Positions 1-26,357 of a stretch of DNA of 33,072 nt are shown here, in pieces (within the stretch, counting starts at the first letter, position 1; the number at the start of each line of letters is the position of its first letter). Source of the stretch: Candidatus Amesbacteria bacterium RIFCSPLOWO2_01_FULL_48_25. GTDB lineage: Bacteria; Patescibacteriota; Microgenomatia; CAZETR01; Amesbacteraceae. The notes under the pieces are model-generated. The model was given only the letters and a program-made list of their open reading frames with translations, was not told the origin of the DNA and searched no databases. The stretch spans positions 8,831 to 41,902 of the forward strand of contig MEXN01000001.1 in NCBI GenBank assembly GCA_001773695.1. Reading direction: 5' to 3'. The position numbers and the translations under genes are program-made.

Positions 1-1007
1 TCCCTCCTCCTCAAACAGTCCAGGGCATATGGACCTCTCCCTCGGACCTGGCTGGTAAGCCTATGTCCGGAACAAGCTGGGACAGATTGAAAACAGCTGC
101 CGACTCCAGTTACACTCCTGATATCGATAACCAAGATTCAGCAACTGACGTAAACATGTTGGCTGGAGCAATTGTCTACGCCAGAAACGGTGACGCCACT
201 TATAGAAACAAGGTCATATCAGCTCTTAACGACGCGGTCTCAAGATTTGGCAACTGTCAAGCGACTGGTCGTACGTTAGCCTGGGCCAGAAATATGGCTG
301 CGTATCCTCTAGCCGCTGATCTAGTAGGTTACCGCACTCCCGCCTTTGAACAATTCTTGCGGGACATGGCCGATAGATGCGTCGGTTCTCAAAATGTTTG
401 CCCGGACAACAGGCTATATGACGCCTGTACACTCCGCACCACTTTTTCTGGTATGCCCAATAACTGGGGGCAGCTGGCTTTTGGAGCTCTAGCCGCAATT
501 TATAGATACTTAGGCGATACTCCCAGACTACAAGCCGTCAGATATGAGTGGGTTAACGAACTTCTTTACAACGTAAATAACATCAATAACACCGTTAGTC
601 GCAACTGGTCTTCTGATAAATCGTGGTTTACAGACCCCAATAACCTCAGGATTATTAATCCAGTTGAAGATTCTGTTAAAGGTGGAATAATTCCCGAAGA
701 CGCGCAACGCTGTGGAAGTTACAGTAGTGGATGCATTACTGGGTATACTTACGATACACTTTCGGGAATGGTTGTAGGAGCTAGAGTTCTCCAGAGAGCA
801 GGTATGCCAATTTGGCAGGAAGGCAACGAAGCCATATATAGGGCGGGATATCGCTACTTCGTAATCCGGAATCCAGGCGGTAGTTACGGTATAACCAAAT
901 GGGTTATACCATTCATCAACAGTGCCTATCCTAACCGCAACCCCCTCCCAGACTCCCGTGATCGTGATTGGGGCTGGCAAGCAGGCTATCCATACGTCTT
1001 ACCTTAA
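1..1007 (+). CDS. Secreted polysaccharide-lyase-like protein, 5' partial
   Basis: The reading frame is open from base 3 to the TAA at 1005-1007, so the N-terminus lies outside the window. The first ATG at 63 is internal, because the codons before it already read as protein (PPPQTVQGIWTSPSDL). The sequence resembles the alpha/alpha-toroid alginate lyase/heparinase-like enzymes: a repeated helical pattern, an NNWG motif in the middle (about residue 137 from the ATG at 63) and a late stretch of Tyr/Arg. It is similar in plan to the next gene, which carries a signal peptide, so it is probably also exported and acts on extracellular polysaccharide. The substrate cannot be told, and the family assignment rests on motif impression only. 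Confidence 0.55.
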   Translation, partial: PPPQTVQGIWTSPSDLAGKPMSGTSWDRLKTAADSSYTPDIDNQDSATDVNMLAGAIVYARNGDATYRNKVISALNDAVSRFGNCQATGRTLAWARNMAAYPLAADLVGYRTPAFEQFLRDMADRCVGSQNVCPDNRLYDACTLRTTFSGMPNNWGQLAFGALAAIYRYLGDTPRLQAVRYEWVNELLYNVNNINNTVSRNWSSDKSWFTDPNNLRIINPVEDSVKGGIIPEDAQRCGSYSSGCITGYTYDTLSGMVVGARVLQRAGMPIWQEGNEAIYRAGYRYFVIRNPGGSYGITKWVIPFINSAYPNRNPLPDSRDRDWGWQAGYPYVLP

Positions 1008-1014
1008 ATATTCT

Positions 1015-2364
1015 GTGATAATTTTGCTTTTCATCTTCTTCTCCCTCGCTTCAGTCTCCTCAGTCTCCGCCCAATCTCCCTCCATCAAAGACCTCCTCCT
1101 CTCCTGGCTCACTTCCATCCAGGATCGAAACGGCGACTCCAAAGTCAACTCCCTCGACTTCGCCTCTCTTCTTTCCCTATCCCCCACCCCTACCCCCTCC
1201 GGTCCCACCTCCACCCCAATCCCTATTTCTGGCAACTCCCGCGGCTATGTCACCACACCCGGAGAACTGCTGTATGTAAAGCAAAAAGCAGCTAGCGGAG
1301 TCGAACCCTACAAAAGCGCCAAAGACACGGTAATTAGCTATGCCAACAATAGTCTAAGAACATTCAACGCCCCGGACGCCCAATGCTCTCGTCAAAATGA
1401 CTACTGGTACAACTCATACACCATCGAGGCCAAAGCCATAGCCTACTGGTTGACTGGCGATACGAATTACGCCACTCAAGTGGTTGCCGGTTTGCGCGAT
1501 GCCACTGCCCACCCTGCCTCCAGACTTCCTTCTGGCAACGGCGACCAATGTAATCTAAATGCCGCCTGGTACCCGCCGGGAGTAGTAATTGCGGCCGACT
1601 TAATGGAAGGCTACAGCGGTTGGAGTGCCAGCGACAAACAGGCTTTCCAAAACTATTTGGCCAACAGCGTTTATCCCTTCGCTGCGGCTTCCGGTCGCAA
1701 TTCCAACAACTGGGGCACGGGCGGCGACATGTCCTCCGCATACATTGCCGATTATCTCTGGAATAGGTCGGATCTAAGACTAACCACATTGGACAATACC
1801 CCCAGAAGTCCAGCCCAGGCCTATGAATTTCACGCCCAGCGCCAAATAGGCCGCATAAACGGCACATACATCTACAACTCCGCTTGCCCATTAGATCCGG
1901 GCATTAGGGCCGACGGAGGTCTTTCAGAAGAACTTGAAAGGGGCAGTACCGGATGCTACGGCACAACTCTCCTGGCTTGCGATGCATCCTGGACTTATTC
2001 CATTACCAGCTTGGAGTCGGTCATTATGCACGCTGAACTGCTCTGGAGGCGGGGTAGTGGTGACAGGAGAATATACGATAACGTGGGTCCAAACGGAAAA
2101 GGCCAACTCAAAAAAGCCATTCTTTTTGTCGTCAATTCCTCATGCGACTGGAAAGACTCCCATAAGCATTCACTGGAGTTAACTTTCCGCTATTATCGTG
2201 ACACAGACACTGCTTGCAGCTTGGGTGTAACCAGCGGATCGGGTTGCCGCTCTGGTAGATATATCGGAGATCATTGTGGCTCAATGATGCATTACGGGAC
2301 AATTAGCCATGGATTTGCCGTAGGCGAGAATCCTGGACCTCCTCCCAGAGTCCCCGCACCATAA
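1015..2364 (+). CDS. Secreted dockerin-like / polysaccharide-lyase-like protein
   Basis: The frame is open from an ATG at 922, but that start would overlap the previous gene by 86 bp. A GTG at 1015, just after the upstream stop, places the hydrophobic signal peptide (IILLFIFFSLASVSSVSAQ) at the N-terminus, so I prefer it. After the signal comes one dockerin-type EF-hand loop (DRNGDSKVNSLDFASLL), then a Pro/Thr/Ser linker, then a roughly 370-residue domain like the first gene's, with NNWGTGGDMS and a late SHKHSLELTFRYY / YGTISHGFA region. This suggests an exported lyase whose calcium-binding half-dockerin may mediate attachment. It is a tandem paralogue of its neighbour. Lyase activity and substrate are inferred. 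Confidence 0.6.
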   Translation: MIILLFIFFSLASVSSVSAQSPSIKDLLLSWLTSIQDRNGDSKVNSLDFASLLSLSPTPTPSGPTSTPIPISGNSRGYVTTPGELLYVKQKAASGVEPYKSAKDTVISYANNSLRTFNAPDAQCSRQNDYWYNSYTIEAKAIAYWLTGDTNYATQVVAGLRDATAHPASRLPSGNGDQCNLNAAWYPPGVVIAADLMEGYSGWSASDKQAFQNYLANSVYPFAAASGRNSNNWGTGGDMSSAYIADYLWNRSDLRLTTLDNTPRSPAQAYEFHAQRQIGRINGTYIYNSACPLDPGIRADGGLSEELERGSTGCYGTTLLACDASWTYSITSLESVIMHAELLWRRGSGDRRIYDNVGPNGKGQLKKAILFVVNSSCDWKDSHKHSLELTFRYYRDTDTACSLGVTSGSGCRSGRYIGDHCGSMMHYGTISHGFAVGENPGPPPRVPAP

Positions 2365-10394: not shown

Positions 10395-11270
10395 TTACTT
10401 GTCAACCCACCATCTCTCCCCATCGCTGACTATTTCCACTTCCCCATCCACATCCGTCCTTAGTATCTTAATCTCTTTATCTCTTAGTATCTTCAGTGTC
10501 TCCTCCGCCGGATGCCCATAGCGATTATTCTTCCCCGCCGAGATCACCGCCAACTGCGGCTTAACCACCCCCAACCACTCTCTAGTCATCCCCGTCTTGC
10601 TCCCATGATGCGGCACCTTCAAAACTTCCACACTTCTCAATCCCCCAGCCTCAATCATTTCGTCTTCAATCTGCCAGTCAGCGTCACCGGTCAAAAGCAC
10701 ATCAAATTGGCCAAAACTCAATATTCCCCCAATCGAAAAACTATTCAAATCCGTCCCATCCGTCTTTGCTCCCAGCACCGCCGAACCACTATCATCCGGA
10801 AGTTCCAAATGCGCAAAGACCCAACTCTTTTCCGGCCACACCACCTCAAACTTTATATCTCCTATCCTTATCTCATCTCCGTAATATACATTTGTCACTT
10901 GGGATTTGGTCATTGTGATTTGCCGCCGGATCGCTTCAAATCCGGCGGTCTCATTTCCCTCCACACCCATAACAAACTGTACAATAATATAACCTTTCAT
11001 AACATCCACAAGTCCCCCAATATGATCCGCTTGGGGATGTGTAGCCACCGCCGCTTCTATTTGTTTATCCCAAAATGGCATATGCCGGTTCAAACACCCC
11101 ACCACCCTATCATTTGGACCAGCATCTATCAATATTTGAGTAGTTTTTTGGTAAATCAAAATCGCATCTCCTTGCCCCACGTCGCAAAACACCACATGCA
11201 ACTTATCGTCAGGTAGAGTCAATACCGCAACCCAAACTGTTACCGCCGCCAAGACCAGTATTTTATACAT
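10395..11270 (-). CDS. ComEC-type metallo-beta-lactamase-fold hydrolase (separate ORF)
   Basis: 291 residues from the ATG at 11270: one N-terminal membrane helix (MYKILVLAAVTVWVAVLTL), then an exported metallo-beta-lactamase fold with DVGQGDAILI, ATHPQADHIGGL (the HxxxDH metal motif, with Pro-Gln-Ala between), LLTGDADW, and VPHHGSKTG. In most bacteria this domain is the C-terminal part of ComEC and may degrade the non-transported DNA strand. Here it is a separate frame overlapping the end of the ComEC channel gene by 31 bp. The frame stays open further upstream within comEC, but that part is low-complexity and antisense-like. Confidence 0.88.
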   Translation of the reverse strand: MYKILVLAAVTVWVAVLTLPDDKLHVVFCDVGQGDAILIYQKTTQILIDAGPNDRVVGCLNRHMPFWDKQIEAAVATHPQADHIGGLVDVMKGYIIVQFVMGVEGNETAGFEAIRRQITMTKSQVTNVYYGDEIRIGDIKFEVVWPEKSWVFAHLELPDDSGSAVLGAKTDGTDLNSFSIGGILSFGQFDVLLTGDADWQIEDEMIEAGGLRSVEVLKVPHHGSKTGMTREWLGVVKPQLAVISAGKNNRYGHPAEETLKILRDKEIKILRTDVDGEVEIVSDGERWWVDK

Positions 11271-12457
11271 ATGGCCAAAACCAAATAATAGCCCGCTACC
11301 CACTCCCACCCCAAATCCCCCATCTGTATATTCGCCCAGCTCCACCCGGCCACTGTTTCCACCACCCACACCACATACCGCAAAAGCGGCCAGGCCAGGA
11401 AGGATACCAATTGACCCGCCTCTGCCCAAATTACCCCGGCCAAAACCGCTACTCCCAATATCTGCATCACAACAGGTACTGCCCACAACACGACCAGGTT
11501 AGATATTGGAGCCACCACACTCAAATTCCCAAAATAGTGCCAAATTATAGGTAGTGTCATAATCTGAGCAGCTAGAGTCACTTTTAAATCCTCGACAAAT
11601 GTCAACCCCAAAGAGCCCAGCCAGCCGATCGATCCCTCCACATTGCGCAAACTGGTGACCCCCATCACTCCCACGGTTGCTGCTACAGACAACAAAAACC
11701 CCACATCGGATAGATAATCCGGGTTCACAACCAGCATCGTCCACACCGTCAGCCCCAACATCCACCACCCCCCGCTTTTCCTACCCCACACCAGCCCCAA
11801 AAAACCCAATGTAGCCATTACTCCTGCCCGCACCACTGCCGCCGACAACCCTGCCATCACCATATACAAAATAATGAAAAATATGACATATGGTATCGAC
11901 CGTCGCCTGCCCCAAATCTTCCACCCCCATCCCATTACCCAGCCGGCCACCACAGCCACGTTATATCCCGAAGCAGCAGTAATGTGGCTTAACCCTGCAC
12001 TTCTGAATTCCCCCGTCAACTCCCGGCTCATGGCCTCGTCTCCTCCCAGAAGCACCCCACTCGCCAAACCCCCCTCATCCTGCCCCAACCAAGCTACTAA
12101 GTCCTGCTGCCATTTCCGTTTTAAATCCACAATCCACCCCACCCACTTGTTCTCCTCCCCCAGTATCTGAAAGTCTCGGGCTTGTAGCTCTAACCTCGTA
12201 TCTCCATTCTTTGTTACTTTAGAAACAAGCTTGCCAGTCGTCACAAACCGCTGTCCATATCGCATCTGCTCGCCCCTTGGCCATCGCACTCCTATCCCCT
12301 CCACTCTTATATAGTTCCCCCCGCCCAGCGATTCTACTCTACCGTAAATTTTCACTACCATGTTTTCCACAAAATTACGCCTTACATTATATTTAGAATA
12401 CACCCGAAACCCCAAAATCAAAATCATTACACACCAAATTACATACCATCTCACCAT
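11240..12457 (-). CDS. comEC: ComEC/Rec2 competence channel protein
   Basis: 405 residues. An N-terminal helix is followed by an OB-fold-like DUF4131 region (GRVESLGGGNYIRVEGIGVRW), then the Competence domain with about eight to nine membrane spans. The signature GLSHITAASGYNVAVVAG corresponds to the family's G-x-SH-x-x-x-SG-x-x. It should form the inner-membrane channel for incoming single-stranded DNA. The protein ends with IKYWSWRR before the hydrolase domain, which is a separate overlapping gene. Its ATG overlaps the comEA stop by 7 bp (ATGGTGA). Confidence 0.92.
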   Translation of the reverse strand: MVRWYVIWCVMILILGFRVYSKYNVRRNFVENMVVKIYGRVESLGGGNYIRVEGIGVRWPRGEQMRYGQRFVTTGKLVSKVTKNGDTRLELQARDFQILGEENKWVGWIVDLKRKWQQDLVAWLGQDEGGLASGVLLGGDEAMSRELTGEFRSAGLSHITAASGYNVAVVAGWVMGWGWKIWGRRRSIPYVIFFIILYMVMAGLSAAVVRAGVMATLGFLGLVWGRKSGGWWMLGLTVWTMLVVNPDYLSDVGFLLSVAATVGVMGVTSLRNVEGSIGWLGSLGLTFVEDLKVTLAAQIMTLPIIWHYFGNLSVVAPISNLVVLWAVPVVMQILGVAVLAGVIWAEAGQLVSFLAWPLLRYVVWVVETVAGWSWANIQMGDLGWEWVAGYYLVLAICIKYWSWRR

Positions 12458-13035
12458 GCTACTATCGATTCTTTTATTTGGTCAAATACTTTTTGGCCCA
12501 CGACCTTTTTAGATACCAGCTCCTCTATCTTTCCATACGGCCGCCCGGAAATGATTTTACCTGCCGTCACCGGCCCTATCCCAATCAACCCCTCCAACTC
12601 CGCCTGCGAAGCCATGTTTATATTGATTTTTGAATTTGGAGTTTGATTTGACATTTGAGTTTTGTCATTTGAATTTATTGACGGAACATATATCTTTTGC
12701 CCATCCACCACTCTGGCTGCTCTATTAAGATTTATTTCTATCCACTTTGTATCAGATTCCACAGACAATCCACCGGCCGCCTCCAACGCCTCCTCAACCC
12801 GAGCGCCAAATTTCAAAGCATAGACTCCAGGCTTTACCACTGATCCCGAAACATCTACCGCTATAGCAGCAGAATTTGTAGCTTCACCTCCACTCAATTC
12901 GGTCTGGGCAGACAATATTTCCACCTCAGGTTGATTCTGCAACTTCCACCAACCCACACCCAAACCAATTAAAATCAAGCTCGCAAGGCCCAAAACTACG
13001 GGCCAATATTTCGCCTGCCACCCGCTAGGATCCAT
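12451..13035 (-). CDS. comEA: ComEA-like competence DNA-binding protein
   Basis: 194 residues: an N-terminal membrane anchor (residues 10-30, YWPVVLGLASLILIGLGVGW), an SLBB-type domain (VDVSGSVVKPGVYALKFGARV ... DGQKIYVPS, about 60-118), and a C-terminal helix-hairpin-helix pair (ININMASQAELEGLIGIGPVTAGKII) that binds DNA. The linker NSNDKTQMSNQTPNSK is coded by an AT-rich repetitive tract (about 12620-12672) of the same style as the window's intergenic repeats. It overlaps leuS by 11 bp and comEC by 7 bp. Role: capture of double-stranded DNA at the membrane and handover to ComEC. Confidence 0.92.
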   Translation of the reverse strand: MDPSGWQAKYWPVVLGLASLILIGLGVGWWKLQNQPEVEILSAQTELSGGEATNSAAIAVDVSGSVVKPGVYALKFGARVEEALEAAGGLSVESDTKWIEINLNRAARVVDGQKIYVPSINSNDKTQMSNQTPNSKININMASQAELEGLIGIGPVTAGKIISGRPYGKIEELVSKKVVGQKVFDQIKESIVAW

Positions 13036-15994
13036 TAGTGACTAAATTTAAAATCTTTCCCGGCACAAATACAATCCCGTACTTAGTACCAATCACATGT
13101 TTAGCCACGTTTCCAATCTTCAAAGCCTCCTCGATCACATACTCCAGCTCTTCTGCTCTTGCACTCTCCAGCTCTATTCTCCCCCTCATCTTCCCATTTA
13201 CCTGCACTACCAGCACAACCATCCTGCTCCCCACCAGCCTCGTATCAAACTCGGGCCATTTTTGGTTATGCACAGACTCAAACTTATCAGCACTCCCCCG
13301 CAACTGCTGATAAAGTTCCTCGGCCATATACGGAGCATACGGTGCCATGACCAAAGCCATCTTCCTCCACACATCTGCCCAATTTCCGCCCGCCCCCGTC
13401 TTGAGCGCCACCTCCAAACTATTCAAGCTCTCCATCATCGCCGCCACCGCCGTGTTAAAAGACATGGTCTCCAAATCTTTCGTCACCCGATCCACCAATT
13501 TATTGGCAATCACATCCGCTTCCCCCACCTCGCCCCGCAAATCGCGCGTCTTACCAAACAAATTCCATACCCGGTTCAAAAATCGCTTCACTCCCTCCAC
13601 CCCAGCCGTACTCCAAGCCTTAGTAGCATCCAGTGGCCCCATAAACATCTCATACATCCTCAACGTATCCGCTCCGAATTTATCTACTACCTCGGTCGGG
13701 TTGACCACATTTCCCCACCTCTTACTCATTTTCCGATTGTCCTCTCCCAATACATGCCCGTTTTTATAAAATTTAGCAAACGGCTCATCCATCTTCACCA
13801 AACCCAAATCAAAAAGCACCTTAGTCATAAACCGAGCATAAATCAAGTGTGTCGTGGCGTGATCCCCCCCCACATACAAATCTACCGGCATCCACTCCTC
13901 CACTTTCTTTGTATCCCAGATCTTTTTTTTGTTATGCGAATCGCAAAACCGCAAAAAATACCACGTCGAGTCCACAAAGGTATCCATGGTATCCACCTCC
14001 CGTCTCCCCACTCCTCCACATTTCGGACAAACTACATCTTTCTGGAAACTTTTAGATCTAGTAATTGGCGACTGGCCGGTCGGCTTGAAATCCACATCGG
14101 TTGGCAGTAAGACCGGTAATTGATCTTCCGGAACCGGATTCCATTTGCATATATCGCAAAATATCATCGGTATCGGCGCCCCCCAGTACCTCTGCCGGGA
14201 AATCAGCCAATCCCGCAGGTGATATGTCACCTCTCTCGTCCCCAACCCGTCTTTAACCATCCTCTCTCTGGCTTCAACCGAGTGCACCCCGCCATACTCA
14301 CCTGAATTTATCAGCTCTCCCTCACCTTCATAAGGCTCAAGCCCCAACATCAAAAAGTCAGCCTGTTCCTTCCATCTCACTTCTCCCTTCAAAGTCATTG
14401 ATCTCTTTTTTTCTTCATAAATAGCACTTCGAGACAAACACAACACCCCAACTCCCCACAACTTTCTTTCTTGAACCATATCGGCCCACCTGCTTTCTAA
14501 TACTTCAGGATTAGACGACTCCAACTTAACAATGTAGCCCTTTTCATTCACCTCTATCGCAGATATATCTACATGTATATCTCCCCGACTCGAGTCCTTT
14601 ATCGCCTGAAAATAGTATTTAGTATTTTTTCCCTTGGGCCACAGAGTCTCAACCTCATAGCCCAAACTAACAAACTGACTTCTCCACCAATCAACATCTT
14701 CTTTCAATATAAGTAAGTCAATATCTTCGTTCTCCCTAAACTCCTCACCTACTTGTGCAGCCACTGCCCAACCCCCACTCAATATCAACCTTTTGTCATT
14801 TTTATTACCCAGCTCAAACAACTCTTTGATTGCTTTGCGATTACGTTCTTGCCTCCCTTTATAGTAATTCCTCGCATTCTCGTCCACGTACACTCTCTGT
14901 GGCAACACTACCGGCAATACATCGATACTATGCTTCCCAGCAAACTGAAAGTCCCGCTCGTCATGGGCCGGCACGCCCATGACCACTCCGGTACCCACGT
15001 CTTTAAGCACATAATCTGCCACATACACGGGTAATTTCTCGCCATTCGCTGGATTAATAGCCATCAAATCTGTTTTCACTCCCGTTTTTTGCTTATTATC
15101 TTTTTTCCTCTCCTCTTCTGATCTATCCAGAGCTTCTTTGACATACTCCCCAATGTCTAACGGCATCTTCCAACCCTGCGTTTTCCAGTCTCGAGCCACT
15201 TCCGGAGCCACCACCACAAACGCCACCCCAAAAATAGTATCTAACCTTGTGGTAAACACCTCAGGTTTAATTGTGAATTGTGAATTGTGAATTGTGAATT
15301 GAACCCTAGCTCCTTCTTTTCTTCCTATCCAGTTCCTCTGCATGGCTTTCGTCGAAGCCGGCCAGTCAATTCTATCCAGCCCTTCAAGCAACCTATCTGC
15401 GTACTTTGTAATCGCCAAAAACCATTGCTCCATCTCCTTCAAAACCACCGGAGTGTCGCACCGCTCGCACCTGCCTTCTACTACTTGTTCATTTGCCAAG
15501 ACAGTCTCGCACGACGGGCACCAGTTAACCACAGCACTAGCCCGATACGCCAGTCCCTTCTCATACAGCTGGATAAACAGCCACTGGGTCCATCTATAAT
15601 AATCCGGGCTACTTGTGTCTATCTCCCGTTCCCAATCATAAGAAAGTTCCCCTGCTGCCATTTGCCTCTTAAAGTTCTGGATATTTGCGTGTGTTGACTT
15701 ATCGGGATGCACTCCATGCTTGATTGCATAATTTTCTGCTGGCAAGCCAAAAGCATCCCACCCCATTGGGTGCAGCACTTGATGTCCCGACATTCTCCAA
15801 TACCGGGCCACAATGTCAGTTGCCACATATCCCAGCATATGACCCACATGCAATCCAGAAGCCGATGGGTAAGGAAACATGTCCAAAATATATCTCTTGC
15901 GGCCACCCTTCGGATCGCCAGTCGCGTATAACGAGTTTTTATCCCATACCTTAGGCCACTTTTTCTCGAGAGACTTCGGGTCGTATTTCTCCAT
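13025..15994 (-). CDS. leuS: Leucyl-tRNA synthetase with inserted nucleotidyltransferase domain
   Basis: 989 residues from the ATG at 15994 (MEKYDPKSLEKKW); an 8-nt gap to a TAAAAT box supports this start over upstream ATGs. Class I signatures: HVGH (49-52), a zinc-type CPSC/CERC pair, the editing threonine-rich site EVFTTRLDT (about 245-253), VMGVPAHDERDF (339-349), SRQRYWG (599-605) and KMSKRWGN (755-762). Right after the editing-site helix (DVLPVVLPQ) about 190 residues (366-554) replace a normally short loop. They form a nucleotidyltransferase domain with LSGGWAV, ENEDIDLLI, GDIHVDISAIE and a late LCLSRSAIYEEKKRS. The editing domain then resumes at ELINSGEYGG. An AATTGTG repeat also codes part of residues 231-243. 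It leads the comEA-comEC operon. Confidence 0.96.
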   Translation of the reverse strand: MEKYDPKSLEKKWPKVWDKNSLYATGDPKGGRKRYILDMFPYPSASGLHVGHMLGYVATDIVARYWRMSGHQVLHPMGWDAFGLPAENYAIKHGVHPDKSTHANIQNFKRQMAAGELSYDWEREIDTSSPDYYRWTQWLFIQLYEKGLAYRASAVVNWCPSCETVLANEQVVEGRCERCDTPVVLKEMEQWFLAITKYADRLLEGLDRIDWPASTKAMQRNWIGRKEGARVQFTIHNSQFTIKPEVFTTRLDTIFGVAFVVVAPEVARDWKTQGWKMPLDIGEYVKEALDRSEEERKKDNKQKTGVKTDLMAINPANGEKLPVYVADYVLKDVGTGVVMGVPAHDERDFQFAGKHSIDVLPVVLPQRVYVDENARNYYKGRQERNRKAIKELFELGNKNDKRLILSGGWAVAAQVGEEFRENEDIDLLILKEDVDWWRSQFVSLGYEVETLWPKGKNTKYYFQAIKDSSRGDIHVDISAIEVNEKGYIVKLESSNPEVLESRWADMVQERKLWGVGVLCLSRSAIYEEKKRSMTLKGEVRWKEQADFLMLGLEPYEGEGELINSGEYGGVHSVEARERMVKDGLGTREVTYHLRDWLISRQRYWGAPIPMIFCDICKWNPVPEDQLPVLLPTDVDFKPTGQSPITRSKSFQKDVVCPKCGGVGRREVDTMDTFVDSTWYFLRFCDSHNKKKIWDTKKVEEWMPVDLYVGGDHATTHLIYARFMTKVLFDLGLVKMDEPFAKFYKNGHVLGEDNRKMSKRWGNVVNPTEVVDKFGADTLRMYEMFMGPLDATKAWSTAGVEGVKRFLNRVWNLFGKTRDLRGEVGEADVIANKLVDRVTKDLETMSFNTAVAAMMESLNSLEVALKTGAGGNWADVWRKMALVMAPYAPYMAEELYQQLRGSADKFESVHNQKWPEFDTRLVGSRMVVLVVQVNGKMRGRIELESARAEELEYVIEEALKIGNVAKHVIGTKYGIVFVPGKILNLVTNGS
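14333..14899 (-). other. Nucleotidyltransferase domain inside leuS
   Basis: This part of leuS encodes a fold like the LinB/ANT(2'')-type nucleotidyltransferases: GG-W (residues 407-409 of LeuRS), D-x-D (424, 426) after a G-x5-R-x-x-x-D spacing, and a third acidic residue (D476) in RGDIHVDISAIEVNEKG. All three catalytic carboxylates are present, so the domain could bind metal and NTP. No canonical LeuRS has it at this position as far as I know. Confidence 0.75.
15269..15301. repeat. AATTGTG tandem repeat within leuS
   Basis: Four tandem copies of AATTGTG (15269-15296) plus a partial fifth. On the coding strand they give an in-frame QFTIHNSQFTI-like stretch just before the editing motif. Confidence 0.75.
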
Positions 15995-16002
15995 TACACA
16001 CA

Positions 16003-16031
16003 ATTTTAAATCTCCCAATCCCATATCGCAA
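16003..16031 (-). promoter_or_regulatory. leuS operon promoter
   Basis: On the minus strand TTGCGA (16031-16026), a 17-nt spacer and TAAAAT (16008-16003) lie 8 nt upstream of the leuS ATG. This predicts a leaderless or 1-2 nt leader mRNA. Confidence 0.5.
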
Positions 16032-16343
16032 CCTCCAGCCACAAGTCAAATCTAATCCTATAGCCGCTTCTTCCGAAATTCCCTTCCTTGTGTCTCAAAA
16101 CTTGTCATTTTTGTTTCATTCTCCAATCATCAATCCAATTGGTCAATTTCTCAAACTGGCAATCAAAACAATAAATCGCCAACGTTAATTTCGCTTTACC
16201 CTGTAAGCAAATCACGTTTCATATAAAAACACCAAAAGAATCCATACCAAGATTATCCACAATCCTGTTGACAATTAGTTACATCGTACTATTATCAGCA
16301 TATAATATCTAATAATTAATATAATTTATATAATTTAGCTTCA

Positions 16344-16355: not shown

Positions 16356-17321
16356 GTGGCAACTGATTATACCGAATCCCTTCGCTCTAAATTCGCCCAA
16401 TTCCTGGGCCCACTGGGCGTTAGCCATAATACTTATAAAAACTACCTTTCGGATCTGCTTCACTTTTTCGACTGGTACGCTTCACTTGGTCTCACTCTTT
16501 CCCCCGAAAACATAGCCGATTCTCTCACCCCCACCCAGCTAGCCCACTATCGTGATCATCTCATCTCGCACTCGCCAGTAACAACCGCCAACCGCCGCCT
16601 TTCTACCCTCCGTCGGTTCTGCCAATTCGCCTTTTCCCAAAACATCTTGCCCTCCGACCCTTCTGCCAACCTAAGCAACATCTCCCAACCCCTAACCGCC
16701 CAGGAAGCCATCCTCACCCGCTTCCGTTCTTTTCTCAAATCAGAAGGGGCCTCGATCGTCACCATAAAAAATTATCTGTCCGATGCTAGATACTTCATGC
16801 AGTTCTCCCCTCAGCTCGACCCCGACCTTTCGGCATACACTTTGCACCTCCAAGCCACCTTCTCCCCCTCCACCGCATTACGCCGATTGTCCTCGGCAAA
16901 AAAACTTGTATACTTTCTCCAATCCCAACCTCCCCTTCCGCCCCTGGAAACACCTCCTCCGGCACCGGAGCTAGTCCCCACACCGATCACTCCAGAGACC
17001 TATTTGTCAGAAGTGGTACCAGAAGACCTACCTCCCCCACCTCCCCCCATTCCTTCATCATCCAACCAAACTCTCCTCAATCAACTGGATCTCTCTTTTC
17101 CCCCTGAGATTTCCCACGAGACCTCTATCCCGCCTTCACCACCCCCATCTCCCGTTAGTCCGAATAGAACAACGAGTTATTCCACCAGCCGTCTCTCCAC
17201 CATTATCATTATCGTCACTCTAGTCGGCTGTATCCTGACGGCGATAGCCGCTTATCTCCTCGCCCGCTCCGAACCCGGTCAAATTATCGACCCCTCCTCC
17301 ACCTCGCAACCCCTGCCGTAA
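16356..17321 (+). CDS. Membrane-anchored double Xer core-binding-domain protein (no catalytic domain)
   Basis: 321 residues starting at GTG. Residues 1-107 match the N-terminal SAM-like core-binding domain of XerC/XerD recombinases (TYKNYLSDLLHFFDWY, ANRRLSTLRRFCQFAF). Residues 115-190 repeat it (TIKNYLSDARYFMQF, STALRRLSSAKKLVYFL). The catalytic R-H-R-H-Y domain is absent. Instead come a 75-residue Pro-rich linker (191-267) and a membrane helix (282-303, TIIIIVTLVGCILTAIAAYLL) with a short tail. The arrangement suggests a cytoplasmic DNA-binding module tethered to the membrane rather than a recombinase. What DNA it binds is unknown. Confidence 0.75.
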   Translation: MATDYTESLRSKFAQFLGPLGVSHNTYKNYLSDLLHFFDWYASLGLTLSPENIADSLTPTQLAHYRDHLISHSPVTTANRRLSTLRRFCQFAFSQNILPSDPSANLSNISQPLTAQEAILTRFRSFLKSEGASIVTIKNYLSDARYFMQFSPQLDPDLSAYTLHLQATFSPSTALRRLSSAKKLVYFLQSQPPLPPLETPPPAPELVPTPITPETYLSEVVPEDLPPPPPPIPSSSNQTLLNQLDLSFPPEISHETSIPPSPPPSPVSPNRTTSYSTSRLSTIIIIVTLVGCILTAIAAYLLARSEPGQIIDPSSTSQPLP

Positions 17322-17328
17322 ATCGGCT

Positions 17329-18018
17329 CTATAACAACTCGCTCCATTTGCTCTCGACTCTCGCATCCTGAACATATTCCCCATAACTTCTCCACTTACG
17401 CTCCCCCTCCCCCAACTCCTTTAATATGGGTAAACAATTTACCCAAGTGTCTCGACCTCCATTCAGATAAATCTTATAACTTGAATGGGGATAATCCTCA
17501 ACCCGTGAACTGGTAATTGCCTCCACGGGCCCGAACCGCCTTATCGTCCTGGCCATTGACCTCAAATGAATATATCGGGAAACACTCAGCGCCTGATCCA
17601 TATTCTCTACTCTCAAGGCTTTATATATTCCCTCCCACAATCCCCCCCTCCTTTTGTGCTTCTTATTAAAATACATTACATATCCCGTCAGCACCCTCCT
17701 CATAAATTTAGTCATCCCGGTTTTTGTCTTTTGGCTAACCAACAAATAAAAATTGTTTGGCATCAAGCAATATGCCCACACCTCCACCTCCCCGTGCAAG
17801 TTCATTGCCTGCTTTCTTCTGGCTAAATACGGCCGTTCACTTTTAAACCCCGGTATTACCGGCTCCGGATGATACTCGTCCACGTATCTCTGGCACAAAC
17901 TCAAAAACTCATTGTAATCCTGGTCGGAGCCAAACACCTCCCGTCCGTCTATTCCCCTATTATATATATAGTATACTCCGTCTTCCTGATAACTCTTGAC
18001 TCTGTACTTAGCTGGCAT
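17329..18018 (-). CDS. RAYT/IS200-like transposase relative with degenerate HUH motif
   Basis: Y1-transposase family (REP-associated type): GVYYIYNRGIDGREVFGSDQ at the N-terminus, AYCLMPNNFYLLVSQ in the middle, and SRYIHLRSMA near the catalytic tyrosine. Active members have NHFHLL, where both histidines bind metal; here they are Asn and Tyr (about residues 89 and 91). The usual HLNP after the catalytic Tyr helix is HLRS. The length (229 aa) is intact and there is no frameshift, so it may be a domesticated, non-cleaving DNA-binding protein or a recently inactivated one. I chose the ATG at 18018 over a GTG at 18024. Convergent with the Xer-like gene, 7 bp apart. Confidence 0.8.
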   Translation of the reverse strand: MPAKYRVKSYQEDGVYYIYNRGIDGREVFGSDQDYNEFLSLCQRYVDEYHPEPVIPGFKSERPYLARRKQAMNLHGEVEVWAYCLMPNNFYLLVSQKTKTGMTKFMRRVLTGYVMYFNKKHKRRGGLWEGIYKALRVENMDQALSVSRYIHLRSMARTIRRFGPVEAITSSRVEDYPHSSYKIYLNGGRDTWVNCLPILKELGEGERKWRSYGEYVQDARVESKWSELL

Positions 18019-18020
18019 AT

Positions 18021-18050
18021 TCACGGTCTGACCTATTGCGCTACAGGTCC
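18021..18050 (-). other. tRNA-like 5' fragment upstream of the RAYT gene
   Basis: The minus-strand sequence GGACCTGTAGCGCAATAGG followed by TCAGACCG resembles the acceptor strand, T8/A9 and D-arm of a tRNA. The D-stem does not pair well and no anticodon arm or T-arm follows. It may be a tRNA remnant at an insertion junction, or chance. Confidence 0.25.
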
Positions 18051-18070
18051 AACCTTATCTATAATTCTTC

Positions 18071-18099
18071 TTGACACGCTTGTCAATCACCACTTAAAT
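18071..18099 (+). promoter_or_regulatory. Promoter of the O-antigen-ligase-like gene
   Basis: TTGACA (18071-18076), a 17-nt spacer and TTAAAT (18094-18099), with the ATG 9 nt later at 18109. This is the clearest -35/-10 pair in the window. Confidence 0.6.
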
Positions 18100-18108
18100 A
18101 TTAGTATC

Positions 18109-20160
18109 ATGAAACTTTCCCTGCCTCTCCAAAAAGCCGGGTTCTTCACCGTTCTCGCTGCCATATTCCTCTTACCTCTCTTCTTTTTGCCCATCACCTC
18201 CGAATTTTATGAATTCAACAAACAAGCACTACTTGCTACAGTTGCCCTTACCTCTCTCACTCTTTGGTCAATTTCACTTGTAGCCGATAAACAGGTCCGT
18301 ATCACCCGCTCCCCCTTCGGCCTGCCCTTTCTCACTCTGGCGGCAGCCTGGTTATTGTCCACCTTTTTGAAAACCCCCAACCGGGTAGACGCCTTTCTCG
18401 ACCCTGGATCTACTACCACTATCCTTTCTCTAGTCATCCTCTTCTTCACTTCAATAAATCTTATCCGTACCCGCAAGGAACTGGATTCGGTCACCATGGC
18501 CCTTATCTCGTCCGTCACCCTACTCGCCGTCATCTCCATCATCTGGGGCGTGGGGATTGGTGAAAAAATTGCCCCGTTCCCTTTCCTCAAAACCCCACTT
18601 TGGACACCCACCGGCAATCCTATCAGCACCCTCTCTCTCCTTTTGGGACTAGTGCCTTTCCTAGTCATTTCCATCGTTAAATCCAAAGAGTCCTCACCCC
18701 GCACCCTTCTTTTGGCCGTTTCCCTTTTCTTGTGTGTCATCTCCTCGGCCATAATCAGCTACCGCATGTTCAGGCCCAACCCCAACTCCCCCATCTCCGC
18801 CATCTTCCTCCCCCAACGTTTCAGTTGGGCAGTGGCGTTAGAATCACTCAAAATCTCACCCCTTTTGGGCACCGGCCCTTCCACCTACCTAGCGGATTTC
18901 ACTCGTTTCCGCCCAGTGACCTATAACCTCACCCCCATTTGGAACATTCGTTTCGCCGCCGCCAGTAATTACTACTTACATCTTTTAACCACGGTCGGAT
19001 TAATAGGTCTTCTGGCCTACCTATTTCTCGCCCTGCGCTCCACCAGCCTCCTACTCAAAACTTTCAGTTCTTCAGCCGAGACCCCCCTCCACTCCGCTTG
19101 CCTAGGCGCTCTTACCTCAGTCGTCTTGCTTTTCATCTCCCAAGTATTTCTTCCAGGCACTATTACTATCTTGACTTTCGTAGTCATCCTTATGATCATC
19201 GCCTCCGTTTCCCTAAAACTCGCCGGTTCCTCACTCGTCCACGAAGCCACAATCGATATTGTCGCCGCCACTGATAGCGGCACCCGCTCCCCCCTCCTCC
19301 CATACATTACTCTGGTCCTGGCCCTGAGCCTGGCCATTCCTTCCTTTTACCTGGGCGGCCGGGCGTATTACGCTGAGACACTTTTCCAACAAGCAGTTGT
19401 GGCAGCCGCCGCCAACGATGGCAAAAAGACCTACGACACGCTCATTGCCACCATAGCCGCCAACCCCTTCCGAGACACATACCGCCTGGCCTACGCTCAA
19501 ACTAACCTATTACTAGCCGGTGTCCTCTCGACCAAAAAAGATATCACCGATTCCGATCGCCAAGTCATTACCCAGCTCATCCAACAAGCCATCCGCGAAG
19601 CCAAGAATGCCGTGGCCCTCAACCCCGCCAAAGTCGCAAACGTCGAAAACCTGGCCACTACCTACCGTAACCTTATTAATCTCGCCCAAGGATCGGACGC
19701 CTGGACAGTGGCTTCCTACCAACAAGCCATCGCTCTTGATCCCACCAACCCCAACCTACGCATCGCTCTGGGTGGTACCCTCTACGCCCTCAAAAACTAC
19801 TCCGAAGCCGCCCGCTTCTTCCAATCCGCTGTTGACCTCAAGCCAAATCTCCCCAACGCCTACTACAACCTAGGGGCGACTTACCGCGAACAGGGCGACT
19901 ATCCCAAAGCACTCGCCGCCTTGCAGAACGTCTCAAACCTAGTAGACCGCGGTTCGGCCGACTATACCAAGGTCCAAACCGAGCTAGATGACCTGAGAAA
20001 GAAGTTAGGCGAAGCCGCCGCCCAGGCTCCTGCTGCCGCCCCGGCTAAAACGGAACTAGAGTCCCCCCAGCCCCTTCCTTCCCCCAAGCTTAACCCTCCC
20101 CTCAAGCTTCCCGCCGAACTCGGCCCAGAATCTTCCCCCTCCCCCACCCCCATACCATAA
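18109..20160 (+). CDS. O-antigen ligase (WaaL/PglL-like) membrane protein with TPR tail
   Basis: 683 residues. The start at ATG 18109 is set by the promoter and by the first membrane helix (AGFFTVLAAIFLLPLFFLP). About ten to twelve membrane spans follow, with the Wzy_C region around LLGTGPSTYLADFTRFRP and ASNYYLHLLTTVGLIGLLAY typical of ligases/polymerases. After a last span (LPYITLVLALSLAIPSFYLG) comes an external tail with two or three TPR units (LRIALGGTLYALKNYSEAARF; NAYYNLGATYREQGDYPKAL) and a Pro-rich end. Likely role: transfer of lipid-linked glycan to an acceptor, perhaps glycoprotein, outside the membrane. The acceptor is unknown. Confidence 0.85.
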   Translation: MKLSLPLQKAGFFTVLAAIFLLPLFFLPITSEFYEFNKQALLATVALTSLTLWSISLVADKQVRITRSPFGLPFLTLAAAWLLSTFLKTPNRVDAFLDPGSTTTILSLVILFFTSINLIRTRKELDSVTMALISSVTLLAVISIIWGVGIGEKIAPFPFLKTPLWTPTGNPISTLSLLLGLVPFLVISIVKSKESSPRTLLLAVSLFLCVISSAIISYRMFRPNPNSPISAIFLPQRFSWAVALESLKISPLLGTGPSTYLADFTRFRPVTYNLTPIWNIRFAAASNYYLHLLTTVGLIGLLAYLFLALRSTSLLLKTFSSSAETPLHSACLGALTSVVLLFISQVFLPGTITILTFVVILMIIASVSLKLAGSSLVHEATIDIVAATDSGTRSPLLPYITLVLALSLAIPSFYLGGRAYYAETLFQQAVVAAAANDGKKTYDTLIATIAANPFRDTYRLAYAQTNLLLAGVLSTKKDITDSDRQVITQLIQQAIREAKNAVALNPAKVANVENLATTYRNLINLAQGSDAWTVASYQQAIALDPTNPNLRIALGGTLYALKNYSEAARFFQSAVDLKPNLPNAYYNLGATYREQGDYPKALAALQNVSNLVDRGSADYTKVQTELDDLRKKLGEAAAQAPAAAPAKTELESPQPLPSPKLNPPLKLPAELGPESSPSPTPIP

Positions 20161-20188: not shown

Positions 20189-20259
20189 GGGCCTATAGGT
20201 AAGTGGTATACCGGATCGTTCGCAACGATCAGTCGCCAGTCCGATTCTGGCTAGGTCCA
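20189..20259 (+). tRNA. tRNA-Ala (anticodon CGC)
   Basis: 71 nt folding as a cloverleaf: acceptor GGGCCTA/TAGGTCC with discriminator A, D-stem GGTA/TACC, anticodon stem GATCG/CGATC around loop TTCGCAA (anticodon 20221-20223), T-arm GCCAG/CTGGC. The G3-U70 pair, the alanine identity element, is present. No CCA is encoded. The T-loop begins TCC rather than TTC. Confidence 0.93.
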
Positions 20260-20307: not shown

Positions 20308-20378
20308 GGGCCCGTGGTATACCGGTAACACATCTCCATGGCATGGAGAAGTAAGGGGTTCAATTCCCCTCGGGTCCA
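20308..20378 (+). tRNA. tRNA-Ala (anticodon GGC)
   Basis: 71 nt cloverleaf: acceptor GGGCCCG/CGGGTCC with discriminator A and the G3-U70 alanine identity pair, anticodon stem TCTCC/GGAGA around loop ATGGCAT (anticodon 20340-20342), T-arm AGGGG-TTCAATT-CCCCT. The D-stem is weak, with one mismatch in GTAT/ACAC. No CCA encoded. Reads GCC/GCU codons, complementing the CGC isoacceptor upstream. Confidence 0.92.
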
Positions 20379-24153: not shown

Positions 24154-25560
24154 ATGTCACCCCCTATTTCCTCGCTCAAAAACGTCAATAACATCTATTT
24201 TTTAGGCATAGCGGGACAGCTGATGAGCGCACTGGCCTGTGTGGCCAAAGACTTTGGTTACCACATCACCGGTTCAGATGAAAACGCCTATCCGCCAGCC
24301 ACTACATACCTCGAAAGCTCGAAAATAACCTGGATCAGCGGCCATAAACCAGAAAATATCGGCCACCCAGATCTTGTGGTATTGGGCAACCACATCCGGC
24401 AGGGAAATCCGGAACTCGAAGCCCTCCTCGAAAGCAAAATCCCCTTCGTCTCATATCCCCAAATGGTCCGCCTGCTTTTTCCCAACGCCAAGTATCGCCT
24501 GGTGGTAGCAGGCACTCACGGTAAATCCACTACCACATCCCTACTAGGCTGGATTCTTACCCAAGCCGGACTAAATCCCACAGTTTTAATCGGAGCCCAG
24601 TCAAAAAACTTCAACTCTTCATTTCGCTTGGGAAGCAAAGAGATTCTAGTCATCGAAGGCGATGAATACACTAGCTCTTGTTTAGATAACACGCCAAAAT
24701 TCCTCTACTACGAACCGACTCACGCCATACTAACCAGCGCAGAACTTGACCACATGGATGTCTTCAATACTTGGGAGAAACAAGCAACAGCGTTTACCAG
24801 CTTCGCCAAATCAGTCTCCCAAATGCTCATTGTTTGTGGAGACACTCTAAACGGCAATAAATTAAGCCTACCCACCAAAGCTAAAGTCGAAAAGTACGGT
24901 CTAGGAGAATTTGACTGGCAAGCAACAAATATTCACTTTTCAGGCAAACTCACCAAGTTCGATGTTTCTCATCACGAAAAACTGCTCGGCACTTTCTCCA
25001 TGCACCTTTCGGGCAAACATTATATCCAAGACTCTCTCTCGGCCATCGCTCTTGCTCACCACACCGATATTCCTACTCATATCATTCAGAAATCGCTCCT
25101 GACATTTAAGGGTGTTGGTAAACGCTTCGAAGTCGTCTATGACAAAGGCATTACTATTATCGACGACTACGCTCACCACCCCACTGCTATCAAAGTCACC
25201 TTAGAAGCAGCCTCGTCCCGCTACCCAAGCCGTCGCCTGTGGGCTATCTATGAACCCCATACTTTTACCAGAGTCAAAGGCCTCCTTCCCCAGTTCGCCC
25301 ACTGTTTTGATCCTGCAGACATCGCCATTATTGCAGACATCATGCCCGCCCGAGAGAAGGCCCTTACCGGACTTGTTCACTCCAGAGATATAGTCGCTAC
25401 AGCCAAAAATCACCCCGACATCCACTATCTAGCTACTCCCGACGAAATCCTCGCCTATCTCAAACAAAATCTTAAACCCAATGATGTTTTCGTCTTCATG
25501 TCCGTCGGAAAGTTTGGTGATCTACCAAAAAAATTGTCCGAATTTATAACAATCCAATGA
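24154..25560 (+). CDS. Mur ligase of the MurC/Mpl type
   Basis: 468 residues. N-terminal Rossmann domain (IYFLGIAGQLMSALACVAKD, GSDENAYPP), ATP loop VAGTHGKSTTTS (118-129), central EGDEYTSSCLDNTPKF and ELDHMDVF, C-terminal IDDYAHHPTAIKVTLEA. The details (NAYPP, VVLGNHIRQGNPELEA, IEGDEY, KFLYYEPTHAI) resemble Mpl, which recycles murein tripeptide, more than MurC, which adds L-Ala. Mpl and MurC are close relatives; no other MurC is in this window, so it may serve as MurC. It starts the plus-strand mur cluster and its stop overlaps dinD (ATGA). Confidence 0.85.
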   Translation: MSPPISSLKNVNNIYFLGIAGQLMSALACVAKDFGYHITGSDENAYPPATTYLESSKITWISGHKPENIGHPDLVVLGNHIRQGNPELEALLESKIPFVSYPQMVRLLFPNAKYRLVVAGTHGKSTTTSLLGWILTQAGLNPTVLIGAQSKNFNSSFRLGSKEILVIEGDEYTSSCLDNTPKFLYYEPTHAILTSAELDHMDVFNTWEKQATAFTSFAKSVSQMLIVCGDTLNGNKLSLPTKAKVEKYGLGEFDWQATNIHFSGKLTKFDVSHHEKLLGTFSMHLSGKHYIQDSLSAIALAHHTDIPTHIIQKSLLTFKGVGKRFEVVYDKGITIIDDYAHHPTAIKVTLEAASSRYPSRRLWAIYEPHTFTRVKGLLPQFAHCFDPADIAIIADIMPAREKALTGLVHSRDIVATAKNHPDIHYLATPDEILAYLKQNLKPNDVFVFMSVGKFGDLPKKLSEFITIQ

Positions 25561-26357
25561 CCCAAATCCTTCCCTCTTCCCCTCACCAAGATTTTGAAAA
25601 CATAAAAAAGCTTGACGAAAACGGCATTGAGTATTGGGTAGCCAGAGAATTAATGCCTCTTCTGGAATACGACCAGTGGAGAAATTTCGAAGCAGTAATC
25701 GACAAAGCCAAAGTAGCTACATCACAGTCAAATCAAAATGTTACAAGCCATTTTGTTGACATCGGCAAAATGGTAAAACTAGGTTCCGGAAGCGAAAGAA
25801 AAATCAAAGACTACAAGCTATCTCGTTATGCCTGCTATCTCATCGCTCAAAACGGAGATCCCAGCAAACAAGCTATCGCCAATGCTCAAACATATTTTGC
25901 TATTCAAGCCCGCCGCCAGGAAGTAGCTACCTTTGAAGAGGAAAACAAAAGGCTATTCATCCGCCAGGAAGTAAAAAAACAAAACAAACAACTTTTCTCT
26001 ACGGCGTCTAGATCGGGAGTTAGAAATTTTGGTAAATTCAATGATTTGGGTTACCTCGGTCTTTATGGTCTGCATATACCAAAGATCAAGGCCAAGAAAG
26101 ATATCGGCAAGGACGACATTCTTGACAGAGCCGGAGCCACAGAACTTGCCGCCAATCTCTTTCGCATCACTCAGACCGAGGAGAAAATTAGAAAGGATAA
26201 TATCATCGGCGAAGGTCGAGCCTCACTTACTCATTTTTCAGTCGGATCGAAGGTCAGAGAAACTATTAGAAAAATCGGCGGTACTATGCCCGAAGATTTA
26301 CCTCCAGCACTGCACATCAAAAAGTTAAAACCCAGCCAACAAAAACTTCTCAAATGA
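25557..26357 (+). CDS. dinD: DNA damage-inducible protein D (DinD-like)
   Basis: 266 residues matching E. coli DinD across its length: NGIEYWVARELMPLLEY, SRYACYLIAQNGDPSKQ, AQTYFAIQARRQE, GYLGLYGL, TELAANLFRITQTEEKI, and GGTMPEDLP near the C-terminus. E. coli DinD is a RecA-filament inhibitor induced by the SOS response. Here it overlaps the ligase stop by 4 bp and the next start by 4 bp, so it is translated within the mur operon, and I see no LexA-type site of its own. A second-hand location such as this suggests gain by transfer. Confidence 0.92.
   Translation: MTQILPSSPHQDFENIKKLDENGIEYWVARELMPLLEYDQWRNFEAVIDKAKVATSQSNQNVTSHFVDIGKMVKLGSGSERKIKDYKLSRYACYLIAQNGDPSKQAIANAQTYFAIQARRQEVATFEEENKRLFIRQEVKKQNKQLFSTASRSGVRNFGKFNDLGYLGLYGLHIPKIKAKKDIGKDDILDRAGATELAANLFRITQTEEKIRKDNIIGEGRASLTHFSVGSKVRETIRKIGGTMPEDLPPALHIKKLKPSQQKLLK

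Follow-up and report, generated by a model that had tools for sequence, protein, structure and literature searches.

What does a cell do with the DNA-reading domain of a tyrosine recombinase when the domain is present twice, the catalytic domain is missing and the polypeptide ends in a membrane helix? An open reading frame of this kind lies in the 33,072-nucleotide stretch of an Amesbacteria genome analysed here (the window). It starts with GTG, directly after an in-frame stop codon, and encodes 321 amino acids (Table 1).

Against Pfam, the protein matched PF02899 (Phage_int_SAM_1) over two stretches (E = 4.6e-12), and its residues 120-180 matched PF13495 (Phage_int_SAM_4) with an E-value of 2.8e-5 and 24.8 bits, below the 27-bit cut-off. 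A profile built in this analysis detected both domains (SAM1 and SAM2) at 94 and 46 bits. The Phage_int_SAM families were the only Pfam matches above noise; neither PF00589, the catalytic domain that carries the active-site tyrosine, nor a winged-helix domain was found in the protein. An AlphaFold2 model, computed from an alignment of 46 sequences, contained four helices in SAM1 (residues 4-20, 24-43, 59-72 and 75-94) and four in SAM2 (115-129, 134-150, 158-168 and 171-190). Its ten-residue pLDDT means were 84-98 across residues 11-190, and confidence was low for residues ~191-277. The first domain aligned with XerD (1a0p) over 90 residues (Z = 13.6, rmsd 1.6 A), the next structural matches being lambda Int, XerA, XerH and Cre; the fold of the residues beyond 112 was compared with the recombinase N-domain alone. 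A PDB profile search gave weak matches only, two of them recombinase N-domains. Proline makes up 25 of the 82 residues of the linker at 196-277, and the only hydrophobic segment of the ORF (ORF residues 284-302, ~283-301 in protein numbering) belongs to a helix that leaves 17 residues C-terminal of it. Pfam, the profile and AlphaFold2 thus confirmed the initial annotation, which had described two SAM-like domains, a Pro-rich linker and a single membrane helix without a catalytic domain. Its proposal of a tyrosine recombinase origin is supported by the PF02899 and XerD matches, specifically for the core-binding domain.

Table 1 Features of the SAM-SAM-membrane helix gene and its surroundings (window coordinates).
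Feature	Position	Strand	Residues	Description	Basis
SAM-SAM-membrane helix gene	16356..17321	+	1-321	Tandem core-binding (SAM-like) domains, Pro-rich linker, C-terminal membrane helix	ORF, Pfam, profile, AlphaFold2
SAM1	16365..16670	+	4-105	Core-binding fold	Pfam, AlphaFold2, structure match
SAM2	16698..16925	+	115-190	Copy more diverged than SAM1	Profile, AlphaFold2
Linker	16926..17186	+	191-277	Pro-rich, disordered	AlphaFold2, composition
Membrane helix	17187..17267	+	278-304		AlphaFold2, hydrophobicity
Short tail	17268..17318	+	305-321	Presumed extracellular	Fibre position in relatives from other families
Promoter-like site	16268..16295	+		TTGACA-16-TATTAT	11/12 matches; consensus match only
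leuS	13025..16042	-		Divergent neighbour; locus landmark	
comEA	12451..13035			Next after leuS	
comEC	11240..12457			Next after comEA	
Wzy_C/TPR membrane protein	17869..20160	+		Downstream ORF; true start may be further in	

Such a protein could be a truncated recombinase. In the window genome PF00589 matched two genes, both full-length recombinases located elsewhere. A pattern scan of named genomes gathered 78 relatives, 27 with the catalytic domain and 51 without. By title, 48 of the latter were labelled Patescibacteria, one was an unlabelled bacterium (L167) and two belonged to other phyla; of these, L202 has a frame that reaches the end of its contig and L212 one of 137 residues. None of the 27 catalytic relatives was labelled Patescibacteria, one of them (L198) having no phylum label. 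The initial annotation had considered that catalytic homologues would mark the gene as a truncation; a catalytic domain was found in 0 of the 49 Patescibacteria-type loci of the scan. With PF00589 also absent from the protein itself and its genomic matches elsewhere, we reject a truncated recombinase.

The family is widespread. A single-sequence search matched 29 of 59 relatives (E <= 1e-3), and 118 of the 280 genomes in a class-wide sample had a match (E <= 1e-5); these may include some recombinases, the catalysis-free reading covering 68 of them. These 68, together with one that turned out to be a recombinase (G056), are the 69 loci read in detail. In a phylum sample 21 of 379 genomes matched, three of them outside the class; the two loci read beyond the class contained one (L232) and two (L233) SAM-type domains, and in both a hydrophobic stretch and fibre-like sequence come after them. 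A first scan of genome contigs found no relatives. For the window gene there was no phage match, and none of the four plasmid matches covered more than 34% of the query; three of them fell on annotated integrases or recombinases and the fourth outside any listed gene. A phage or plasmid gene is therefore rejected. One relative, weak at 29% identity, was on a viral contig. An anti-phage defence system was also rejected, PADLOC giving no family at E <= 0.1 for three proteins. No description of a SAM-membrane-fibre family was found in the open-access papers searched.

In most relatives, the membrane helix is followed by a recurrent 'FQGRLT' domain (motif found in 37 loci). Of 23 segments scanned against the Bdello_MAT_N model NF053851, 19 reached E <= 0.01, the best at 5.2e-9; the one member for which a bit score was available fell short of the 60-bit cut-off. 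S74 was present in L046 and L050 and was not found in L045 and L053, of which L045 had collagen. Clusters upstream of relatives encode a protein with weak similarity to the NCBIfam 'CPR Pam pilin' model (three of four tested, all below cut-off), a WxLIP-like protein (one of two tested, below cut-off) and Big_1 proteins. The window protein is the pared-down member of a large family of surface fibres, a context that had escaped the initial annotation.

The 68 catalysis-free loci comprise 31 split loci, 26 single long frames (fused), nine short Amesbacteria forms and two with an A-like gene only, as judged within the DNA stretch available. Fused loci mostly consist of SAM-SAM-membrane helix and a giant fibre (MAT-like N-domain, S74, collagen). 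SAM2 was not recognisable in four of the 26 (L021, L122, L123 and L146), and no hydrophobic segment turned up in the scanned stretch of L121 or of L022, a locus that a contig end interrupts. In the split form, which occurs across 16 families, gene A encodes SAM1 and helices 1-2 of SAM2, and gene B encodes helices 3-4 of SAM2, the membrane helix and the fibre. The split point is the loop between SAM2 helices 2 and 3, matching residues ~151-157 of the window protein. L052 differs in that its gene A holds two whole domains and a further half, and in some loci of family f6 the half SAM2 of gene A is no longer found by the profile. All 31 B frames contain a hydrophobic span; their placement rests on a start codon ahead of the half-domain, and ATG, GTG or TTG was present there in 29 (none in L111 and L143). 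Genes A and B overlap (e.g. L045, L144), are immediate neighbours or lie up to 6.7-6.9 kb apart, with intervening genes in three loci (L117 and L127, 6.7-6.9 kb; L124, 1.0 kb). Giant Laminin_G_3 surface proteins are encoded between A and B in L117 (5951-12595, 2214 aa) and L127 (6780-12479, 1899 aa). Some split loci are on million-base contigs (e.g. L108), which argues against assembly error. The architecture, the family and the split layout are well supported. The SAM-SAM-TM order given at first thus stands, but the frequent division of the second domain between two genes had been missed.

In the tree, fused clades are nested inside split groups (L115/L046/L047, SH-aLRT 100; L122/L123, 98), so that the family seems to switch between split and fused forms in either direction; 39 of the 71 inner branches are weakly supported, and the starred branches alone force only two changes. 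Between them, the two halves of SAM2 retain the core residues of the domain (profile position 23 is D in 28 of 28, position 55 is Y in 29 of 30 and position 78 is F/Y in 30 of 30), suggesting that the halves fold together. The split SAM2 probably reassembles in trans from its A and B halves.

Our preferred reading, to which we assign a probability of about 50%, is that the protein is a membrane-tethered, non-catalytic foot for binding DNA, which evolved as the basal part of a surface fibre. Its cytoplasmic part would keep the helices by which tyrosine recombinases read the major groove, and the flexible linker and one N-in helix would hold this part at the inner membrane face. The wider family would then be the cytoplasmic foot of MAT-like surface fibres, in which SAM1 would read DNA and SAM2 would join foot to fibre, with a covalent joint where the genes are fused and a non-covalent one in split loci, where soluble A and membrane-fibre B would reassemble the domain. 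The Amesbacteria foot, having no fibre, may hold a DNA region at the membrane or regulate genes from there. For such tethering, or another DNA-linked function, we see the chances as evenly balanced.

Among 96 SAM1 domains, the conserved polar and charged positions fall at the start of helix B, in helix D and in the closing NP turn: T/S26 (99%), K/R28 (94%), N29 (91%), S32 (80%), D33 (98%), R80 (98%), R81 (74%) and R/K86 (91%). The window protein has T26, K28, N29 and S32 in helix B and R80, R81 and R86 in helix D. At the matching positions, 29 SAM2 domains have K/R28 (93%), N29 (93%) and R80 (100%). We take these SAM1 and SAM2 positions to be those that contact DNA in Cre. On its own, a core-binding domain should bind DNA weakly, which counts against a DNA-binding role. 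In XerH, most of the base-specific contacts come from the N-domain, which reaches into the major groove (PMC5241119). R80 and D33, both near-invariant, could form a structural salt bridge rather than a DNA contact. On balance, DNA binding seems fairly probable.

The same fold might instead now bind protein, as a RodZ-like scaffold that docks a cytoplasmic protein while the fibre points out. The layout is that of RodZ, and SAM1 of the window protein carries no net positive charge (8 K+R against 8 D+E). Several split SAM2 domains of families f6 and f37 have also lost the DNA-facing residues and kept the core, so at least SAM2 can join proteins; this erosion equally fits SAM2 as the joint and SAM1 as the reader. 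However, most of the 96 SAM1 domains keep K/R28, N29, R81 and R/K86 on the DNA-reading helices, and we regard a purely protein-binding scaffold as unlikely.

Positive charge is higher before the membrane helix in seven of nine Amesbacteria proteins and 38 of 55 relatives, a modest bias that is opposite in one of nine and eight of 55. Together with the fibre domains after the helix in relatives, it makes an N-in, C-out single-span anchor plausible, and likewise the location at the inner membrane face that had been suggested from the window sequence; a helix failing to span the membrane, the other refuting outcome named initially, was not what the analysis gave. A DNA-binding domain, linker, single membrane helix and extracytoplasmic part in this order would also suit a membrane-bound one-component regulator in the style of ToxR or CadC, whose foot would act on promoters and whose outside part would sense contact; a soluble A and a membrane-bound B in split forms would permit release or recruitment. 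Amesbacteria proteins, however, have no sensor after the helix. Such a regulator, which as to DNA binding is a sub-case of the membrane-tethered DNA-binding foot, seems rather improbable.

All nine Amesbacteria copies end at or soon after the membrane helix. By profile, the window protein and L037 have a near-complete SAM2 and L038 a partial one, whereas none was detected in the remaining six copies. Amesbacteria have lost the fibre, and several species SAM2 as well, while the foot and the anchor were kept. The tree gives two changes, with weak support, for the origin of the short form. In five of 14 family genomes the gene is absent, profile search there giving recombinase-length frames only; in two of them (L246 and L247) leuS is followed directly by a transposase-like gene and the Wzy gene, and the other three have different neighbours. 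These losses, and the absence of any S74 over the cut-off from the window genome, are what would be expected of a fading remnant of a fibre protein, left by reductive evolution and without present function. Against this, the SAM1 motif is invariant across nine sequences of 26-44% identity, and the window gene is preceded by a good promoter-like site. In addition, dN/dS is ~0.16 (0.14-0.16) at a dS of 1.0 in the shortest pair (L043/L044), and 0.13 in L040/L041, where dS is near saturation. A functionless remnant is thus a poor explanation. The reduced form is under purifying selection, yet dispensable at family scale, since five of the 14 genomes do without it. The foot and anchor, kept after fibre loss, are probably useful without the fibre.

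The catalytic recombinases of the pattern scan had been chosen by motif-holding patterns, which biases their conservation, and 20 resident-type Xer domains were used for comparison instead. They have I/Y/T/V and no K/R at position 28, and A/N at position 29 (N in six of 20), so the target of the SAM family may differ from dif. One further reading makes the protein a decoy for the resident Xer system, or an anchor by which dif or XerC/D would be kept at the membrane. It would draw on the core-binding fold common to the two resident full-length recombinases, but it conflicts with these helix-B differences from K/R and N, has no dif-site link that we could find and leaves the fibre fusion unexplained, making it highly improbable. 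The dif or segregation role suggested initially is unsupported, as no evidence for either link was found. The DnaA box cited in its favour (TTATCCACA, 16253-16261) is real, but at least one box occurred in 31 of 100 shuffles and none in the eight other Amesbacteria intergenic regions; we reject it as a functional clue to attachment or segregation. No upstream RNA element of the gene was found, the RNAs in the window being two tRNAs only. Both tRNA genes (20189-20259 and 20308-20378, plus strand) lie between the Wzy/TPR gene and a LysM-M23 peptidase gene.

leuS and comEC/comEA flank the gene in 21-22 of 69 loci, and in other relatives the gene sits behind a different surface-protein cluster; a comEC/comEA partnership is therefore treated as locus history. 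The window leuS ORF (1005 aa) is longer than those of neighbouring Amesbacteria and contains, right after the editing-domain match, a nucleotidyltransferase-like stretch (14423-14875, minus strand; PF10706, 2.6e-7, residues 406-540; PF14907, residues 390-537). The Wzy_C/TPR gene recurs downstream in 18 of the 69 loci searched. Between it and the SAM gene lies a Y1 (IS200-like) transposase-type gene (17329-18024, minus strand), which also adjoins the SAM gene in other Amesbacteria; its HUH motif looks degenerate in the window (NNFYLL, against NHFHLL in a relative). Elsewhere in the window, an alginate-lyase-like protein (922-2364, plus strand; PF05426, 6.3e-8) follows a frame without Pfam match (3-1007), and a BRO-N domain protein (25557-26357, plus strand; PF02498, 3.6e-10) directly follows a Mur-ligase-like gene (24154-25560), named from sequence alone.

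The bacteria that carry the SAM-fibre family are uncultured and thought to live on other cells. The family is widespread among them and could explain how such epibiotic cells couple contact with a host to the DNA inside them. We tentatively suggest that the split domain acts as a snap fastener, in which A binds DNA and carries half of SAM2 and the fibre protein B supplies the other half. The adhesive fibre of an epibiotic cell would then be plugged into cytoplasmic DNA, Amesbacteria having kept the inner plug only, and host contact could reach the nucleoid or gene control without a classical signalling chain. The conserved, apparently re-fused two-gene split of a four-helix DNA-binding domain would, if true, give fold complementation a new example from nature.

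Several known systems resemble parts of this arrangement. The family shares the four-helix fold and the conserved helix B and D positions with the core-binding domains of XerC/XerD, lambda Int and Cre, but lacks the catalytic domain, is tandem or split, and is attached to the membrane. ToxR and CadC have a cytoplasmic DNA-binding-type N-domain, a single helix and an outside C-terminal part, the N-domain being a winged helix and not a SAM fold. RodZ combines a DNA-binding-type N-domain, a linker, a single helix and an outside beta domain; its fold differs, and the window protein had no Pfam match to HTH_25, the RodZ-type domain. MyRF unites a DNA-binding domain, an S74 trimerisation chaperone and a membrane helix, with S74 on the DNA-binding side of the membrane, whereas in the SAM-fibre relatives S74 lies beyond the helix. 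With the mosaic adhesive trimer (MAT) fibres of Bdellovibrio, relatives share a MAT_N-like domain soon after the helix and, in some, the S74 chaperone. MAT fibres have a conserved beta-rich N-domain at the cell surface, and S74 occurs in one of their two subgroups. Bdellovibrio MATs begin with a signal peptide, followed by the N-domain (PMC10769870), whereas in the SAM relatives a foot of recombinase origin in the cytoplasm and a membrane helix come first. Unlike MAT fibres, the window protein itself has no fibre. We know of no system that links the DNA-reading domain of a recombinase to both the membrane and a surface fibre.
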